The translations under genes were made by a program, and so were the position numbers. A stretch of DNA of 56,030 nt from Nitrospira sp. (GTDB taxonomy: Bacteria; Nitrospirota; Nitrospiria; Nitrospirales; Nitrospiraceae): the NCBI GenBank assembly GCA_030444405.1, contig JARFPM010000023.1, forward strand, positions 1-56,030, written 5' to 3'. The notes beneath the pieces were generated by a model that was not told where the DNA came from, searched no databases, and worked only from the letters and a program-made list of their open reading frames with translations. The first letter of the stretch is position 1. Every line of letters begins with the position of its first letter. Below, piece after piece: positions 21,231 through 28,691 of the stretch.

Positions 21231-21983
21231 TCAGGGGTGGGGCCGAGAAGAAACTTGGGGATTTCGTCGACGCGCCTGAACCGAGTTGAGCCACTGCGCA
21301 AGCTGTGCGATCACTATGCCTCGAGGTTTCTGAGAGGCTTCGGCCGTGGAACCGGCTGTAGGAACAGGTCTTTCTTCTGAACGGAGCACGCTACTCAATA
21401 ACCTGTTAGTTTCATCTTTCGTTGCGAGCGTTGCATCGCCTAGGGAGGATGTCGTGCCCTCGCCGCGAAGGTGGTCCGAGTCAAAGCTTGCGTTCTTTAC
21501 CGGTTTCTCATGCAATGGTCCTTGCGATTGTGCCGCTCCATGAGCCGTCGGCACGTCGAGCCCGGCACGAAGAGACAAGGCTTCTTGGTCGTGTGGGTTA
21601 ACGGATAAAATAACGTTGCACGACCGGACGGCCGCTTCTTTGGCCCCTTGAGCCGCGTAGAGCTTGGCCAATGTTCGATGCGCACGAAGATTATCAGGGC
21701 TCAATTTTATAGCTTCTTCGAGAATGGCCTTGGCCTTGACTGCTTGGTTCAACTGCTCATATGCACGACCTAAGGCAACCATGGCCGTGATAAAACCTGG
21801 ATAGATCTTCAGCCCATCCTCAAGAACAGCAACGGCCTCTTCCCACATACCGGCTTTGCCGTATTCTTCTGCCAGAGGGACAAACACCTTGGACCCCGGC
21901 TCTTTAGCAAAGGCCAAGGCCAGCCGATCAATTTCAGCGGCATTACCCGTTTTTTTTGAACTGGACGCCATAGCTCTGCTCAC
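21231..21983 (-). CDS. Tetratricopeptide repeat protein
   Basis: The product is up to 250 residues (GTG at 21983 overlapping the coaBC stop by 4 bases; an ATG at 21971 is an alternative). Residues about 15-150 form four TPR-like helical pairs (FVPLAEEYGKAGMWEEAVAV, AMVALGRAYEQLNQAVKAKA, LRAHRTLAKLYAAQGAKEAA). The C-terminal 100 residues are low in complexity. No signal peptide. It is likely a cytoplasmic scaffold; the operon position between coaBC and aroQ gives no clear function. Confidence 0.85.
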   Translation of the reverse strand: MSRAMASSSKKTGNAAEIDRLALAFAKEPGSKVFVPLAEEYGKAGMWEEAVAVLEDGLKIYPGFITAMVALGRAYEQLNQAVKAKAILEEAIKLSPDNLRAHRTLAKLYAAQGAKEAAVRSCNVILSVNPHDQEALSLRAGLDVPTAHGAAQSQGPLHEKPVKNASFDSDHLRGEGTTSSLGDATLATKDETNRLLSSVLRSEERPVPTAGSTAEASQKPRGIVIAQLAQWLNSVQARRRNPQVSSRPHP

Positions 21984-23224
21984 TCCACCAAGGACTCACG
22001 ACGAGGTGAGATCAGACACAGTTCGCGCACGGCAGTCAGAATTTCGTCGGCCAGACGGCGCTTGGACATCAGTCCCAAGGTCTTCTGTTCGCCCGTGGCC
22101 GAGAGAATGATAACCGCATTGTCGTCACTGCCAAACCCACCTCCCCCTTGCGCGACATCGTTAGCAACGATGAGATCCAAGCCTTTCCCTCTCAACTTGT
22201 CTTTCGCATGAGACAGCACTTGTTCGGTTTCCGCCGCGAAACCGACCACAATTTGCGTTGTCCGACGCGCGGACAGCATCGAGAGAATGTCCGGAGTGGC
22301 TTCAAGCTCGAGTACGAGTTCAGATTTGCCCTGTTTCTTGAGTTTCTGCCCAGCCGGCATTTTGGGCCGAAAGTCCGCGACCGCTGCCGCCATGATCAGA
22401 ACCGTAGCGGAAGGGAAATGCCGACTCAATGCGTCGCTCATCTCGCCCGCTGTGTTGACCGAAACAGTAGTTATCCCCTGAGGAGGCGTCAGGGAGGAAG
22501 GCCCTGTAACCAAGATAACCTCCGCTCCTCGATCCCGTGCAGCTTCTGCAATTGCATATCCCATCTTCCCGGAGGAACGGTTGGAAATAAAACGAACCGG
22601 ATCAATGGGTTCTTGAGTCGGGCCCGCGGATACCAGCACCCGCTGCCCTCGCCAATCCCGCTGTGGGATCAGCGCCGCATGTATGGCATCCAAGATTCTT
22701 GACTCAGCTGGGAGCCTCCCTTGTGCAACTTGTCCTGATGCCAGCGGACCCACTTCAGGATCAAGCACGACGACACCACGGGCGCGGAGCAGCTGAACAT
22801 GTTGAACGACCGTGGGATGTGTCCACATATCCCCGTCCATGGCAGGAGCGACAATCACGGGGCACCGAGCATTCAACAGCATCGTGCTCAACAGATCATC
22901 TGCTAGACCAAGCGCCGCCTTTGCCAGAAAATTTGCCGTAGCCGGCGCCACGATAATCGCATGGGCTTGTTCTGGGAGAACAAGATGAGCCATCTCCTCG
23001 TGAGATTCAAAAATGTCCGTCGCTACCCGCCTTCCGGAGAGGACTTCAAACGTGAGGGATGTCACAAATTTGGTGGCAGCCTGAGTCATGACCACCGACA
23101 CTGTGGCACCTTCACGCGCAAGAGCTCGAAGCAAGCCGACCGCTTTGTACGCGGCGATGCTGCCGGTTACTCCAAGGGCAAGACGCTTGCCCCACAGATG
23201 TGGCGGCGATTGTGCTTCTTCCAA
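21980..23224 (-). CDS. coaBC: Bifunctional phosphopantothenoylcysteine decarboxylase / synthetase
   Basis: The product is 414 residues and makes 4-phosphopantetheine in coenzyme A synthesis. The N-terminal flavoprotein CoaC domain has [16 protein letters not shown] and [16 protein letters not shown]-type motifs; the C-terminal CoaB domain has [27 protein letters not shown] and later K-rich KLKKQGK. The start is TTG, supported by GAGGAG that overlaps the last codons of rpoZ. It is tightly linked to rpoZ upstream and the TPR gene downstream. Confidence 0.96.
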
Positions 23225-23227
23225 TGG

Positions 23228-23606: not shown

Positions 23607-24323
23607 CTATAAAGTGGACGTCGTTTCCCTTTCCGCCAATTTTGCATCTTTCTCAAGAATAAAGCTTTGCTCAAGCCAATGCATGTCCATCCGCTGGGTC
23701 TTCAGGCGTTCCGCAAGAAAAATGCTTTGCAGTTCACGGAGAGATTGCGTCAAATCATCGTTGCGAACAATGTAATAATACTCCCTGAAACACCAGACCT
23801 CTTCTTTCACCTTTTGCAATCGGCGGACAATCTCTTCCTGAGAGTCTGATCCCCGGCTTTGGAGTCGAGCACGCAGAATGTCCATCGAGGGAGGGAGAAT
23901 GAAGATATAGACGGCATCGCCAAATTTCTTTTTAATCTGGAGCGCACCTTGGACATCGATCTCCAGCAAAACATCGATGCCCTGCTCCATCATATCCATT
24001 AAAGGCTTCCTCGGTGTTCCGTACCAGTGGGAATACACGTGGGCGTACTCCAAAAACTCATTTCTCGCAACCATCTCGTGAAATACGTTCTCTTCGATAA
24101 AGAAGTACTCACGTCCGTGTTCTTCTCCTGGGCGCGGTTTTCTTGTCGTGAAGGACACCGAATGCCACAGCCCGGAGACCGACGTCACAACTTGTTTGCA
24201 CAAGGTCGTCTTCCCTGCTCCTGAAGGGGCTGAAATGATGTACAGGATTCCCCGACGTTGAGGAACTTGCTGATTCTCCGTAACACCTGGAGGGCGGTTA
24301 CTTGTGGTAATCGCAGTGCTCAT
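23607..24323 (-). CDS. gmk: Guanylate kinase
   Basis: The product is 238 residues, with about 20 extra N-terminal residues before the P-loop SAPSGAGKTT. The GMP-binding region SFTTRKPRPGEEHGREYFF and LLEIDVQGALQ are present. It phosphorylates GMP to GDP. The ATG overlaps the yicC stop by 4 bases (ATGA). A C-terminal tail follows the usual end. Confidence 0.96.
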   Translation of the reverse strand: MSTAITTSNRPPGVTENQQVPQRRGILYIISAPSGAGKTTLCKQVVTSVSGLWHSVSFTTRKPRPGEEHGREYFFIEENVFHEMVARNEFLEYAHVYSHWYGTPRKPLMDMMEQGIDVLLEIDVQGALQIKKKFGDAVYIFILPPSMDILRARLQSRGSDSQEEIVRRLQKVKEEVWCFREYYYIVRNDDLTQSLRELQSIFLAERLKTQRMDMHWLEQSFILEKDAKLAERETTSTL

Positions 24324-25198
24324 TCGACATTCTGTATCTGTTCGCGCATACGCTCAAGCTCGGCCTTCATTCGCACCACGTCGGCCCTGATCGCCGCGTC
24401 GTTGGCTTTTGATCCAATGGTATTGACTTCCCGGCCCATTTCCTGAAGAAGAAAATCCAGGGTCTTGCCCACCGGCTCGGTGCCTTGGAGCGCACGCTCA
24501 AACTGTATCATATGCGTGTCTAGTCTGACCAATTCTTCTGTAATGTCGCACCGGTCGGCATAAAGGGCCAACTCCTGATTGAGCCGAGGGAGGTCTGGGA
24601 TAGAGTCTGTCAACAACTTCTCCACGCGCTGCTTCATACGGTCGAAGGTTTCCTGCGCAATGTGGGGAGCACGGGACGATACTGCGCTTCTGCATTCACG
24701 CACTTGATCAAGTCGAGCCAGGATATCCTGTGCAAGCAAGCCCCCCTCTTTCTCCCGCATCTTCGCCATATCCGACACCGCGAGTAGCCCAAGTTTCTCC
24801 ACCATTTTTGTGAGCTTAGGATCATCGGTCGGCTGTTCAGAAAGCGCGATGATATCGCGGAACCCTGCCATCAGTCCGATGTCAATGGAACCCTTAAGTT
24901 TCAGTGTGCGCTGGAGTGTACGAAGAGCTTGATGGTACTGTTTCGCTAGTTCAACGTCAAGTTGCACCGCGCGAGCGCTTCCTCGACTGCCCTGTAGCAA
25001 CACCGTAAGATCGACTCTTCCACGCATACAATGTTGTTGGATCGTCTTCTTGAAGCGTTCTTCTAGCCCGCTCATCGACTTCGGCAGACGAATGGATGTT
25101 TCAAGGAAACGATGGTTAACCGATCGTACTTCAACGCTGACCGTCCCATCGGACCATGACTCCTGTCGCCGGCCAAATCCTGTCATGCTCTTAATCAT
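24320..25198 (-). CDS. YicC family endoribonuclease
   Basis: The start is the ATG at 25198, which overlaps the nth stop by 4 bases (ATGA); the frame is open further upstream but only inside nth. The product is 292 residues beginning MIKSMTGFGR, the YicC signature, with EVRSVNHRFLE and the C-terminal DUF1732 region LDFLLQEMGREVNTIGSKAND. In E. coli YicC is an RNase with a role in small RNA turnover. It sits upstream of gmk, as in many genomes. Confidence 0.94.
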   Translation of the reverse strand: MIKSMTGFGRRQESWSDGTVSVEVRSVNHRFLETSIRLPKSMSGLEERFKKTIQQHCMRGRVDLTVLLQGSRGSARAVQLDVELAKQYHQALRTLQRTLKLKGSIDIGLMAGFRDIIALSEQPTDDPKLTKMVEKLGLLAVSDMAKMREKEGGLLAQDILARLDQVRECRSAVSSRAPHIAQETFDRMKQRVEKLLTDSIPDLPRLNQELALYADRCDITEELVRLDTHMIQFERALQGTEPVGKTLDFLLQEMGREVNTIGSKANDAAIRADVVRMKAELERMREQIQNVE

Positions 25199-25860
25199 TT
25201 CCGGAGTTTTCCTTCCCACTCGCAAACATCGTAAGTCGGACAAACAAGGCAGCGCGGCTTCCGTGCAAGGCACACATACCGGCCATGAAGAAGCAACCGT
25301 TGAGACACATTCGTCCACTGGGTTTGCGGATACGCTGACTGCAGATCGCACTCGATTTGCTCGGGATCCCTTGAATGGGTCAGGGCCAGTCGGTTAGCCA
25401 CCCGCCTTACATGTGTATCAACCACAACAGCTGGTTTTCCAAATACGGCTCCAAGAAGTACATTGGCTGTTTTTCGCCCGACACCAGGTAGCGATGTGAG
25501 TTCTTCCATTCTGTCGGGGACTTGCCCCTTGAACCGCGCGGTAATGACCTGAGCACAGCCGATCAAGTTTTTCGCCTTGCTCTTATAAAAGCCGGTTGAT
25601 CTGATCAATGCCTCCAGATTGGTCGGCATCGCCTTTGCCATGACTTGCGGTGTTGGATATTGCTTGAATAGGCTCGGCGTCACCTGATTCACACGCTGGT
25701 CCGTGCACTGTGCCGATAGAATTGTGGCGACCAGAAGCTCCCACGGAGAACGATGCGCTAATTCCACTCGCGCCACCGGCATGGCGTGACGGAGCCTCGT
25801 GGCGATCTGCGCTGGACGGTCGAGAGCCGACTGTACTCTCATGCGTTCGGCTTTCTTCAT
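25195..25860 (-). CDS. nth: Endonuclease III
   Basis: The product is 221 residues. The helix-hairpin-helix LPGVGRKTANVLL carries the catalytic lysine, VVVDTHVRRVANRL the catalytic aspartate, and the C-terminal cluster C-X6-C-X2-C-X5-C (CLARKPRCLVCPTYDVC) binds a 4Fe-4S cluster. It removes oxidised pyrimidines from DNA and cuts abasic sites. It lies between hflX and yicC with close spacing. Confidence 0.97.
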   Translation of the reverse strand: MKKAERMRVQSALDRPAQIATRLRHAMPVARVELAHRSPWELLVATILSAQCTDQRVNQVTPSLFKQYPTPQVMAKAMPTNLEALIRSTGFYKSKAKNLIGCAQVITARFKGQVPDRMEELTSLPGVGRKTANVLLGAVFGKPAVVVDTHVRRVANRLALTHSRDPEQIECDLQSAYPQTQWTNVSQRLLLHGRYVCLARKPRCLVCPTYDVCEWEGKLRK

Positions 25861-25881: not shown

Positions 25882-27576
25882 TTACCGACGAGATGCAAGC
25901 ACCAGCGCGTCGTCCTGCAGCGGCGCGCGGACGGTCTGATGCTCACCGGTGGGCAGAGCTCTCACGTGGGCTTCCAGTCGAGCGAGGAGAGGGCGAAGTG
26001 TGATCGGCTGGAGCGCCGAAATGCCGATGGCTCCGTAACGTCGGCAGAGCAACTCGACGCGCGATGGAGAAATCTGGTCACACTTATTAAACACGAGCAA
26101 TCTCGGTATCGCATTCAAATGCAGGTCCTCAAGAATGGCGACGACAGCCGTTATCTGAATGTCGATGTCTGCGGCGCTGCCGTCGACAAGATGCAGCAGG
26201 AGATCGGCCTCCCGTAGTTCTTCGAGCGTTGTCCGAAAGGCGCCGACCAGTTCTTGCGGAAGATCCCGAATAAATCCTACAGTGTCGGTGATGATGACTT
26301 CGCGATCCTCCGGGAACCGCAGGCGTCGGCTCGTCGTGTCCAGGGTTTCGAACAATCGGTTTTGAGCTGACACCTGACTGTTCGTCAACACGTTGAGCAA
26401 TGTCGACTTACCGGCGTTTGTATAGCCCACGAGAGAAACGATGGGAAGGCCGTGCCGACCTCGTCTGGATCGACGTTGGTCCTGCTGGCGTCCAAACTGG
26501 GTCAGTTCCCGTTCTAAATGCGTAATGCGGTCGCGCACGCGGCGACGATCAGTTTCCAGTTTGGTTTCGCCCGGTCCTCGAGTACCGATCCCGCCACCCA
26601 GGCGCGAGAGTTGGGCACCTTTTCCAGACAATCGTGGAAGCAGGTACCGTAACTGCGCTAGCTCCACCTGCACTTTACCTTCACGACTGTGGGCTCGGCG
26701 AGCAAAGATGTCCAGGATCAGTTGCGTCCGGTCAATCACCTTAATATCAGTCATCTCTGAAATTGCCCGCAGTTGAGCCGGCGACAACGTTTGATCAAAA
26801 ATCACCATCTCGGCACCACGATGGAGCGCCTGAATCAGAACATCCTTCATCTTGCCACTTCCTAAGAGATACCGCTGATGCCCGTCCGGCGTTCGTTGTA
26901 CCACACGGTCGACCACTGTGACGGCGGCGGAGTTCGCCAGTTCCGCCAATTCGGCTAAACGCTCTTCCTGCTCAGACCGACTTTTGACAGAGGCACTGAC
27001 AAGTATCGCCGATTCCTTACCGCTCTCAACCGCATAGTGCGCTCGAGCCTGCTGAAGGTCTGCATCGAGCTCTTCAATGAACTGGTCGAACATCATTGTC
27101 AGATGGTGGAAAGGGACAGCCTTGAGCACTTTGAACAATTGACCAGTCGAATTGGGAGCCAGCAGATGAGCTAAGTACAGATTGCCTAGACGGCCATCCT
27201 CGGTGATGGAAAGGAGGCCGATAAGATCAAGTCGCAAGAAGGCGAGGTCGGTGAGCACCTCTTGATTTAGAGGCTGATCGTGCAGCTGTGTGCGAATGAA
27301 CCTCAAACCACGGAGCGATCGTGCACCCGCACGGAACAAGGTCAACGTTGTTGAAGACAACGTCAAATCCGTTCCCACAATCACTTCCTGAACTTGTCCT
27401 CGCCTGGTCAAGAGTACGCCGATCGGGCGACGGAGCTCAATGGTCAGCTGGGCCATTGTCTTCGCCAGCTCCGGAGTAATGACCTTGTCGGGTGGCACAC
27501 GACGTCGGTAGAGTCGTTCAACCGACGCAACTTGGCTGGCGCGTAGTCCTGTGATCTGACCTCGGATGTCAGGAAT
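25882..27576 (-). CDS. hflX: GTPase HflX, probable ATT start codon
   Basis: The first conventional start (GTG at 27498) would cut off a conserved N-terminal segment: in-frame codons upstream encode GLRASQVASVERLYRRRVPP, matching the family N-terminus. The frame is closed by a TAA a little further up, and no ATG, GTG or TTG occurs between. ATT at 27576-27574 has GGAG 7 bases upstream, so it is the best start, giving 564 residues. The G domain has VGYTNAGKSTLLN, DTVGFIRDLP and NKCD; the HflX-specific GGGIGTRGPGETKLETDRR precedes it. HflX splits stalled ribosomes. Confidence 0.93.
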   Translation of the reverse strand: MPDIRGQITGLRASQVASVERLYRRRVPPDKVITPELAKTMAQLTIELRRPIGVLLTRRGQVQEVIVGTDLTLSSTTLTLFRAGARSLRGLRFIRTQLHDQPLNQEVLTDLAFLRLDLIGLLSITEDGRLGNLYLAHLLAPNSTGQLFKVLKAVPFHHLTMMFDQFIEELDADLQQARAHYAVESGKESAILVSASVKSRSEQEERLAELAELANSAAVTVVDRVVQRTPDGHQRYLLGSGKMKDVLIQALHRGAEMVIFDQTLSPAQLRAISEMTDIKVIDRTQLILDIFARRAHSREGKVQVELAQLRYLLPRLSGKGAQLSRLGGGIGTRGPGETKLETDRRRVRDRITHLERELTQFGRQQDQRRSRRGRHGLPIVSLVGYTNAGKSTLLNVLTNSQVSAQNRLFETLDTTSRRLRFPEDREVIITDTVGFIRDLPQELVGAFRTTLEELREADLLLHLVDGSAADIDIQITAVVAILEDLHLNAIPRLLVFNKCDQISPSRVELLCRRYGAIGISALQPITLRPLLARLEAHVRALPTGEHQTVRAPLQDDALVLASRR

Positions 27577-27614
27577 TGCCTTTCTCCTTATCCCTTAGAG
27601 AAACCGATACTTGC

Positions 27615-28691
27615 TCAATTCTCTTCATGAATCGCCACGAATCTCTCAGCTGGGCTGATATCGAGATCGGAATGTGGTCGTTCTCCGTTCATCAGCAACC
27701 GGCGCCCCGCTGAGGCAATCATGGCAGCGTTGTCGGTACAATAGTCGATAGGCGGCAGCGATAGGCGAATGCCTTCACGTGCCGCGCGTTCGCTCAGTAT
27801 GGCTCTCAACCGTGAATTTGCTGAGACCCCTCCTACGACAGCGAGTGCAGTCAAGCTCGACTGCTTGAGGGCAGCGAAGGCCTTTGCGGCCAAGACCTGC
27901 ACAATAGCCTCTTGGTAGCAGGCCGCTAAGTCGGCAGTTTGATGAGATTGTAGAGGACCATCCATTTCTCGTAACCTATACAACAACGCCGTCTTGAGGC
28001 CACTGAAGCTGAACTCAAGACTGTTCTGTGCCCGGTGGAATCGAGGAAATCGAATGACCTGTGAATCACCCGAACGTGCGATTCGATCAACGGCTGGTCC
28101 ACCTGGATACCCCAATCCCAGCATCTGGGCTCCCTTGTCGAACGCCTCACCGGCGGCGTCGTCGCGAGTACGTCCCAGTAAGATACACCGACCACCGACT
28201 TCATGGCGATAGAGATGGGTGTGGCCACCCGATACAACCAGCACAATGCAGGACGGCGGGAACATGGGATCGGCGAGCCATGCGGAAGCGATGTGGCCCT
28301 GCAGGTGATTGACCCCGATGATCGGAACGCCCAAGCCGTAGCTCAAGGCTTTGGCGTAATTAACTCCCACCAAAAGCGCCCCAGCCAATCCTGGTCCTTG
28401 GGTGACGGCCACGGCACCGAGAGTATGTTTCGCGACTTGGGCAGTCGCCAAGGCTTCTCGGACCACTAAATCGATCTTCCCAAGGTGAGCTCGTGCGGCT
28501 AATTCCGGAACGACGCCACCGAACTTTTCATGGACGGTCACTTGTGAAGACACTACGTTGGAAAGCACCTCTCCGTCCCGACTAAGTACGGCTGCAGCCG
28601 TTTCATCGCATGAAGACTCGATTCCAAGGACCGGGCCCGGAAACCATTGAGCCCCAGGTGGAAATTCGGACCGATTGGGGTAGGAACACAT
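27615..28691 (-). CDS. tsaD: tRNA threonylcarbamoyladenosine synthase subunit TsaD
   Basis: The product is 358 residues with about 18 unusual N-terminal residues before VLGIESSCDETAAAV. ASKHA-fold marks are present: metal-binding histidines in NHLQGHIASA, SGGHTHLYR, FDKGAQMLGLGYPGGP and the late VVGGVSANSRLR. With TsaB/C/E it makes the t6A37 modification of ANN-decoding tRNAs. No better start codon than ATG 28691 is available, though its Shine-Dalgarno is weak. It heads the run leading to hflX and nth. Confidence 0.96.
   Translation of the reverse strand: MCSYPNRSEFPPGAQWFPGPVLGIESSCDETAAAVLSRDGEVLSNVVSSQVTVHEKFGGVVPELAARAHLGKIDLVVREALATAQVAKHTLGAVAVTQGPGLAGALLVGVNYAKALSYGLGVPIIGVNHLQGHIASAWLADPMFPPSCIVLVVSGGHTHLYRHEVGGRCILLGRTRDDAAGEAFDKGAQMLGLGYPGGPAVDRIARSGDSQVIRFPRFHRAQNSLEFSFSGLKTALLYRLREMDGPLQSHQTADLAACYQEAIVQVLAAKAFAALKQSSLTALAVVGGVSANSRLRAILSERAAREGIRLSLPPIDYCTDNAAMIASAGRRLLMNGERPHSDLDISPAERFVAIHEEN

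Follow-up and report, generated by a model that had tools for sequence, protein, structure and literature searches.

A conserved non-canonical start codon of N-terminally extended HflX in Nitrospira and several other phyla

The hflX locus and its start codon

The window, that is, the whole 56,030-nucleotide stretch of Nitrospira DNA analysed here, contains an hflX gene of the N-terminally extended ('long') type. The gene and all features described in this section lie on the minus strand. The coding sequence spans positions 25882–27576 (564 codons plus a stop codon) within a stop-to-stop frame of 570 codons (25882–27594). It opens with ATT, a very rare start codon, at 27574–27576, preceded at a distance of seven bases (27583–27577) by the Shine–Dalgarno (SD) sequence AAGGAG at 27584–27589, and an in-frame TAA at 27595–27597 closes the frame upstream. 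The first standard start codon in the frame is a GTG at codon 27 (27496–27498). The upstream neighbour (27615–28691), which we take to be tsaD, starts at ATG and ends 38 bases before the ATT; the downstream neighbour (25195–25860), which we take to be an nth-like gene, has an ATG or GTG start. Both neighbours served as negative controls. RNA structure over the hflX start was no more stable than in shuffled sequences (z = 0.37), as judged from the window sequence alone and without an alignment-based fold.

Translation from the ATT gives a protein of 564 residues, which would begin Met-Pro-Asp-Ile if fMet is used at this codon. Residues 190–537 (25966–27009) form the HflX core, comprising the N and middle regions and the G domain, and match the NCBIfam profile TIGR03156 (GTPase HflX) with 438.9 bits, above the cut-off of 216.75. 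That this protein splits 70S ribosomes is inferred from its family, without activity data. Residues 1–183 (27028–27576) constitute the N-terminal extension, whose predicted fold may resemble JAB/MPN and which lacks the metal motif here.

We compared the start region across 79 Nitrospira genomes, one per species (group A); the near relatives among named records are likewise mostly Nitrospira. Six genomes (G034, G044, G048, G057, G058 and G074) with only weak or short-type matches were dropped before counting, leaving 73 usable hflX orthologs. The start column holds ATT in 62 of the 73 loci and ATC in the remaining 11, while ATG, GTG or TTG, the finding that would have spoken against an ATT start, occurs there in none of the 73. 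The SD is conserved from −12 to −8, with A −12, G −10, A −9 and G −8 nearly fixed (69–72 of 73 loci) and G −11 less so (55/73). A match of at least four bases at a spacing of 5–9 was present in all 73 loci, compared with 21% at random positions inside genes. Coding periodicity sets in at the ATT: nucleotide diversity at the three codon positions is 0.67/0.67/0.66 upstream (−45 to −19) versus 0.20/0.07/0.56 in codons 2–26, and the synonymous share of codon differences is 0.07 upstream versus 0.58 downstream.

An alternative is that the real start lies elsewhere in the frame, either at GTG codon 27 or at a canonical codon upstream, and that the ATT is an internal Ile codon. In its favour, the interval from the upstream stop to the ATT contains a canonical codon in 26 of the 73 genus loci; it contains none in the other 47. 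Against it, no coding signature is seen upstream of the ATT, and purifying selection is evident from codon 2. Every genus locus has an upstream in-frame stop, 2 to 67 codons above the ATT, and in three loci (L025, L027 and L071) this stop lies just two codons above. A canonical start further upstream is excluded by in-frame stops in many loci. The first downstream standard start varies between codons 4 and 67, and the codon-27 column is GTG in only 27 of the 73 loci. Residues G6, G10, L11 and R25 are invariant in 26 aligned HflX proteins, and codons 1–26 also encode helix 13–24 of the confidently predicted domain, which a start at GTG-27 would delete. Codon periodicity, the lack of conservation and the loss of conserved codons 1–26 rule out GTG-27. 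A start elsewhere is therefore very unlikely.

The first-pass annotation, made from sequence alone, had placed the hflX start at ATT 27576, with GGAG at seven bases and a TAA just above, as the only plausible start, and had located a conserved HflX N-terminus of about 26 residues upstream of the first standard start. The coordinates are correct, and both claims held: the four invariant residues and the low diversity of codons 2–26 confirm the conserved N-terminus, and comparison strongly supports initiation at the ATT. The position of the start, its non-canonical nature and the strong SD are shown by these data. A start at ATT 27576–27574 is all but certain; it is established by comparison, without an N-terminal peptide.

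A sequencing or assembly error at 27574–27576, a possibility raised at first pass, is all but excluded. The window does come from a 170-contig assembly, but the 73 genus genomes all agree; each represents a different species, and several (G001, G003, G040 and G064) are single-contig. The ATT is not an error because every genus locus carries ATT or ATC and because periodicity begins exactly there, behind the conserved AAGGAG; no raw reads were involved in this check. Translational coupling, with re-initiation after termination at the upstream gene, could in principle make the identity of the codon unimportant, and the 38-base distance in the window is compatible with such coupling. We regard this explanation as unlikely, since an SD of at least four bases is present in every genus locus; gene order was not compared in other phyla.

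Start codons of long-type hflX across phyla

The pattern proved wider than the first-pass annotation could see, extending to several phyla. Beyond the genus but within its phylum, Nitrospirota, we analysed 60 hand-picked loci (group B), which represent 34 genera and 13 families and are not a random sample. Groups C to F were best-match samples around named loci, not surveys, and their related sequences are not independent. They comprised 70 loci of 99 genomes (group C, around a Syntrophobacteraceae record, L139; NCBI phylum Thermodesulfobacteriota), 30 of 77 (group D, around L146, whose phylum is unidentified), 30 of 60 (group E, around L141; Ca. Hydrogenedentota) and 30 of 149 (group F, around L148; Lachnospiraceae, Bacillota). 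One group E locus (L336) was lost at a contig edge, leaving 29 loci, and nine group F loci lacked the long N-terminus, leaving 21. An additional sample around a Deferribacteraceae record (L144; Deferribacterota) comprised 30 of 40 genomes. The phylum names of groups C, E and F and of the Deferribacterota sample are those in the NCBI lineage of the seed record, and the samples were drawn by GTDB groups. The rule for calling starts gave precedence to any canonical codon backed by an SD, and 11 loci without a match to the GLK motif were recovered by projection.

The start column of group B is non-canonical in 57 of 60 loci (ATT 39, ATC 14, ATA 4). The exceptions are an ATG (L188), a TTG (L191) and one unclear locus (L193), for which the calling rule gives ATT at column −6, counted in codons from the GLK motif; we regard this call as uncertain, and the same applies to the two further calls at column −6, which are in group C. 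By the rule, starts are non-canonical in 73/73 loci of group A, 58/60 of B, 55/70 of C, 23/30 of D, 26/29 of E and 8/21 of F, and in 27/30 of the Deferribacterota sample. Over all 313 loci, 270 have a non-canonical start (ATT, ATC, ATA or CTG), 40 a canonical one and three neither. Canonical starts account for 37 of the 283 loci of groups A–F, 12 of them among the 21 of group F, and for three of the 30 Deferribacterota loci. Nine of the 21 long-type genes in group F have an ATG with an SD, so agreement in Bacillota is only partial. The persistence of the non-canonical class in several phyla is shown by these counts.

The stretch from the upstream in-frame stop to the GLK motif contains no ATG, GTG or TTG in 150 of the 283 loci of groups A–F, and 147 of these 150 were called non-canonical. 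In 89 of the 283 loci, the called start follows an in-frame stop by no more than 10 codons, without any canonical codon in the interval, which again argues against a start elsewhere in the frame.

Codon and position vary within this class. The 243 non-canonical calls of groups A–F divide into ATT 140, ATC 69, ATA 22 and CTG 12, each one base away from ATG, and the Deferribacterota sample mostly uses ATA (20/30). Group E has 18 loci with ATT, ATC or ATA at column −8, eight codons ahead of the GLK motif, and another eight with CTG at column −7. ATT, ATC and ATA alone would also be expected at a conserved internal Ile codon; against this reading stand the upstream stops, the point at which periodicity begins, the SD and the CTG cases, among them those at the shifted column in the Hydrogenedentota sample.

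Parsimony on a 280-row FastTree phylogeny gave 46 changes among ATT, ATC, ATA and CTG versus 21 between canonical and non-canonical starts; the lowest count of the latter in 100 label shuffles was 31. The respective numbers are 10 and 2 in groups A and B combined, 21 and 8 in C, and 6 and 2 in E, while D (5 and 5) and F (3 and 3) do not contribute to the contrast. Since the codon and sometimes its position change while the class persists, it is likely that the non-canonical start class, rather than one codon or position, is under selection.

The SD differs between the two kinds of start. An SD of at least four bases is missing from 14 of the 25 canonical-start loci in groups A–E versus 3 of the 235 non-canonical ones, a contrast that depends partly on the calling order. 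Canonical long-type hflX genes often lack an SD (L188, L255, L275, L316, L323, L329 and L330 among others), as if codon and SD trade off.

The N-terminal extension that defines the long type had no Pfam match in any of 26 members. A predicted structure model of residues 1–185 of the window protein has a mean pLDDT of 90.8. Its best VIA-align match is Pyrococcus furiosus JAMM1 (Z 6.9, r.m.s.d. 3.8, 112 aligned), and nearly all of the 50 listed rows are JAB/MPN; no row reached Z 8, and values below 8 may mean merely a common arrangement. The best Foldseek E value was 4.1e-3, with none below 0.001. The metal motif HxH-x(5-8)-[ST]xxD occurs in 0 of 73 loci in the genus Nitrospira; beyond the genus, 133 of the 210 long hflX loci have it, including 20 of 21 in the Bacillota sample. 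Given the weak fold matches, it is no more than possible that the extension is a metalloprotease-type (JAB/MPN, JAMM-like) domain fused to a ribosome splitter. No paper linking HflX with JAMM, JAB or MPN was found in the portion of the open-access literature we looked at, which is no proof of absence.

Start codons of infC, neighbouring genes and short-type HflX

The first-pass annotation had likened the hflX start to that of infC, and the analogy is apt: infC of this genome (L225) starts at ATC after GAGGTG. Within the genus, where 72 genomes have an infC match, all 35 loci examined start at ATC (34) or ATT (one), so that the use of the same start class by infC in the genus is shown. In 30 loci of the Deferribacterota sample, infC calls were ATA 19, ATC 2, ATT 2, canonical 2 and uncalled 5; in 30 loci of the Hydrogenedentota sample, they were ATC 15, ATA 7, ATT 1, CTG 1, canonical 5 and uncalled 1. 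Some canonical infC calls in these two samples are doubtful, because the SD match behind them is short and lies within the gene, and we use both sets of calls merely as background. As a side observation, infC and hflX of Deferribacterota both favour ATA (19/30 and 20/30, the hflX loci being another 30-locus set), and codon choice may shift together by clade.

It might be argued that AUU and AUC starts are widespread in these bacteria and that hflX is nothing special. The comparison is limited to the window region and a few genes and does not cover whole genomes, which leaves some room for this view. The genes compared speak against it. For tsaD, 27 of 30 genus loci have ATG at the aligned column, and the other three have an in-frame ATG 2–4 codons upstream. 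For nth, ATG or GTG was found in 29 of 30 genus loci, the alignment of the last (L026) having begun too late to read. The short-type HflX paralog begins at a conserved ATG in 19 of 20 genus loci (L393–L412); the remaining locus is masked at this point.

For a further 23 frames of the window, we compared up to five syntenic regions. In 20 of these frames, a canonical codon near the frame start (window codon 1–39) is common to the window and every relative compared. The script missed three frames: tsaD and nth, which are canonical by separate alignment, and 24320–25393, which aligned poorly around its start and carries a conserved ATG at codon 66. For hflX, the first canonical codon shared with relatives is frame codon 71, inside conserved sequence. 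The neighbours and the short paralog are shown to start canonically; neither genome-wide laxness, which we consider very unlikely, nor HflX in general explains the AUU, because these genes begin at canonical codons. Among the HflX types here, only the N-terminally extended one has a non-canonical start in the loci sampled.

Two further observations came from these comparisons. A short-type second HflX is present in many genus genomes; the assembly of the window shows only weak other matches (for example, G000:C8) and may lack the paralog. In the conserved frame 21980–23227 (minus strand), a TTG occupies the second codon in the window and in each of the five relatives compared; this start is canonical and conserved, although weak.

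A proposed link to IF3 and comparison with known systems

Non-canonical starts are repressed by IF3, a mechanism through which infC is autoregulated (PMC5472188). Codons that pair weakly at the third base are excluded by IF3, which accepts nothing but Watson–Crick pairs at the first two positions (PMC10158994). HflX, as described for E. coli, splits 70S ribosomes, and 30S subunits are kept from re-associating by IF3, the anti-association factor (PMC9067457). We propose that the AUU at 27576–27574 would be read by initiator tRNA, presumably fMet-tRNA, with a third-position mismatch, and that the good SD would rescue this weak codon. AUU is one of the start codons that IF3 discriminates against and by which infC senses its own product, so IF3 may hold HflX low. 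When free IF3 falls relative to 30S subunits, HflX synthesis would be predicted to rise in step with IF3 itself, and one sensor would set both the 70S-splitting factor, HflX, and the 30S anti-association factor, IF3.

We consider it likely that this explanation holds as a whole, with a weak, IF3-discriminated AUU start keeping HflX low and tied to free IF3. Its IF3 sensitivity and regulatory use are inferred from the codon class and from infC, without expression or IF3 data. The suggestion made at first pass that the start may be regulated therefore stays an inference, with weak tuning in the absence of any regulation still a serious rival.

In that rival reading, a weak codon combined with a good SD simply keeps HflX scarce, as proposed for pcnB, and changes in IF3 have no physiological role. 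In support, canonical-start loci of groups A–E often lack an SD (14/25 versus 3/235 non-canonical), as if output were held low either way; because of this difference, the level, rather than the response to IF3, may be what is selected. AUU and AUA starts in S. aureus give ~10% of AUG expression, and up to 30% for one of them in rich medium (PMC13009471). Against passive tuning, GUG, UUG or weak SDs would suffice for a low level, yet the class persists through 46 codon changes, and infC of the same genus has the same start class. We lean away from passive tuning but cannot exclude it, and prefer the IF3-linked explanation.

A bolder version of the IF3-linked explanation is that an ancient IF3–HflX circuit exists: in much of Bacteria, extended HflX would start at IF3-rejected codons, with the ratio of free IF3 to 30S subunits as the one sensor. 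The evidence leaves us close to evenly balanced on this version, leaning slightly against it. If it is true, hflX would be the second gene after infC with a non-canonical start kept across phyla. A start kept across several phyla in a ribosome-splitting factor suggests that IF3 abundance may be read out by more than infC, and the question of what else is under IF3 start-codon control becomes directly testable. Gene callers limited to ATG, GTG and TTG would be expected to misplace the start of this conserved HflX; this is inferred, as we have seen no annotation of these genomes.

Apart from infC, few genes are known to conserve a non-canonical start, and the examples in the papers cited here concern a single species, one genus, or S. 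aureus and B. subtilis. We found no report of hflX with a non-canonical start in the open-access literature searched, and the term HflX is absent from the main text of PMC13009471. E. coli hflX starts at ATG. Its product, of the short type (PDB 5ady and 7yla), shares the GTPase core, with 44% identity over the aligned stretch in a fold search, and leaves residues 1–187 of the window HflX unmatched.

A close parallel is infC, the textbook example of control by IF3, which encodes IF3 and is autoregulated from an AUU in E. coli and an ATC in Streptomyces (PMC5472188); like hflX, it has an AUU, AUC or AUA start after a strong SD. The hflX product differs in being a ribosome-splitting GTPase and not IF3, so any control would be cross-regulation, and the IF3 dependence of hflX is inferred. 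The Streptomyces stress factor gene sigR, whose GTC start is repressed by IF3 (PMC5472188), resembles hflX in having a conserved non-canonical start behind an extended SD. For sigR, IF3 repression has been shown experimentally and the start is reported from Streptomyces alone, whereas the hflX start spans several phyla and is AUH or CUG. The starts of ccpN (AUA) and cvfC1 (AUU) in S. aureus (PMC13009471) and of pcnB (AUU) in E. coli (cited in PMC1780047) are likewise conserved or inefficient non-canonical starts that lower expression; their reported range is narrower, and their products are not ribosome factors. Non-canonical starts that are conserved or inefficient are thus a known kind, represented by infC, sigR, pcnB, ccpN and cvfC1, and hflX is apparently a new case, unusual in its breadth and in its product.
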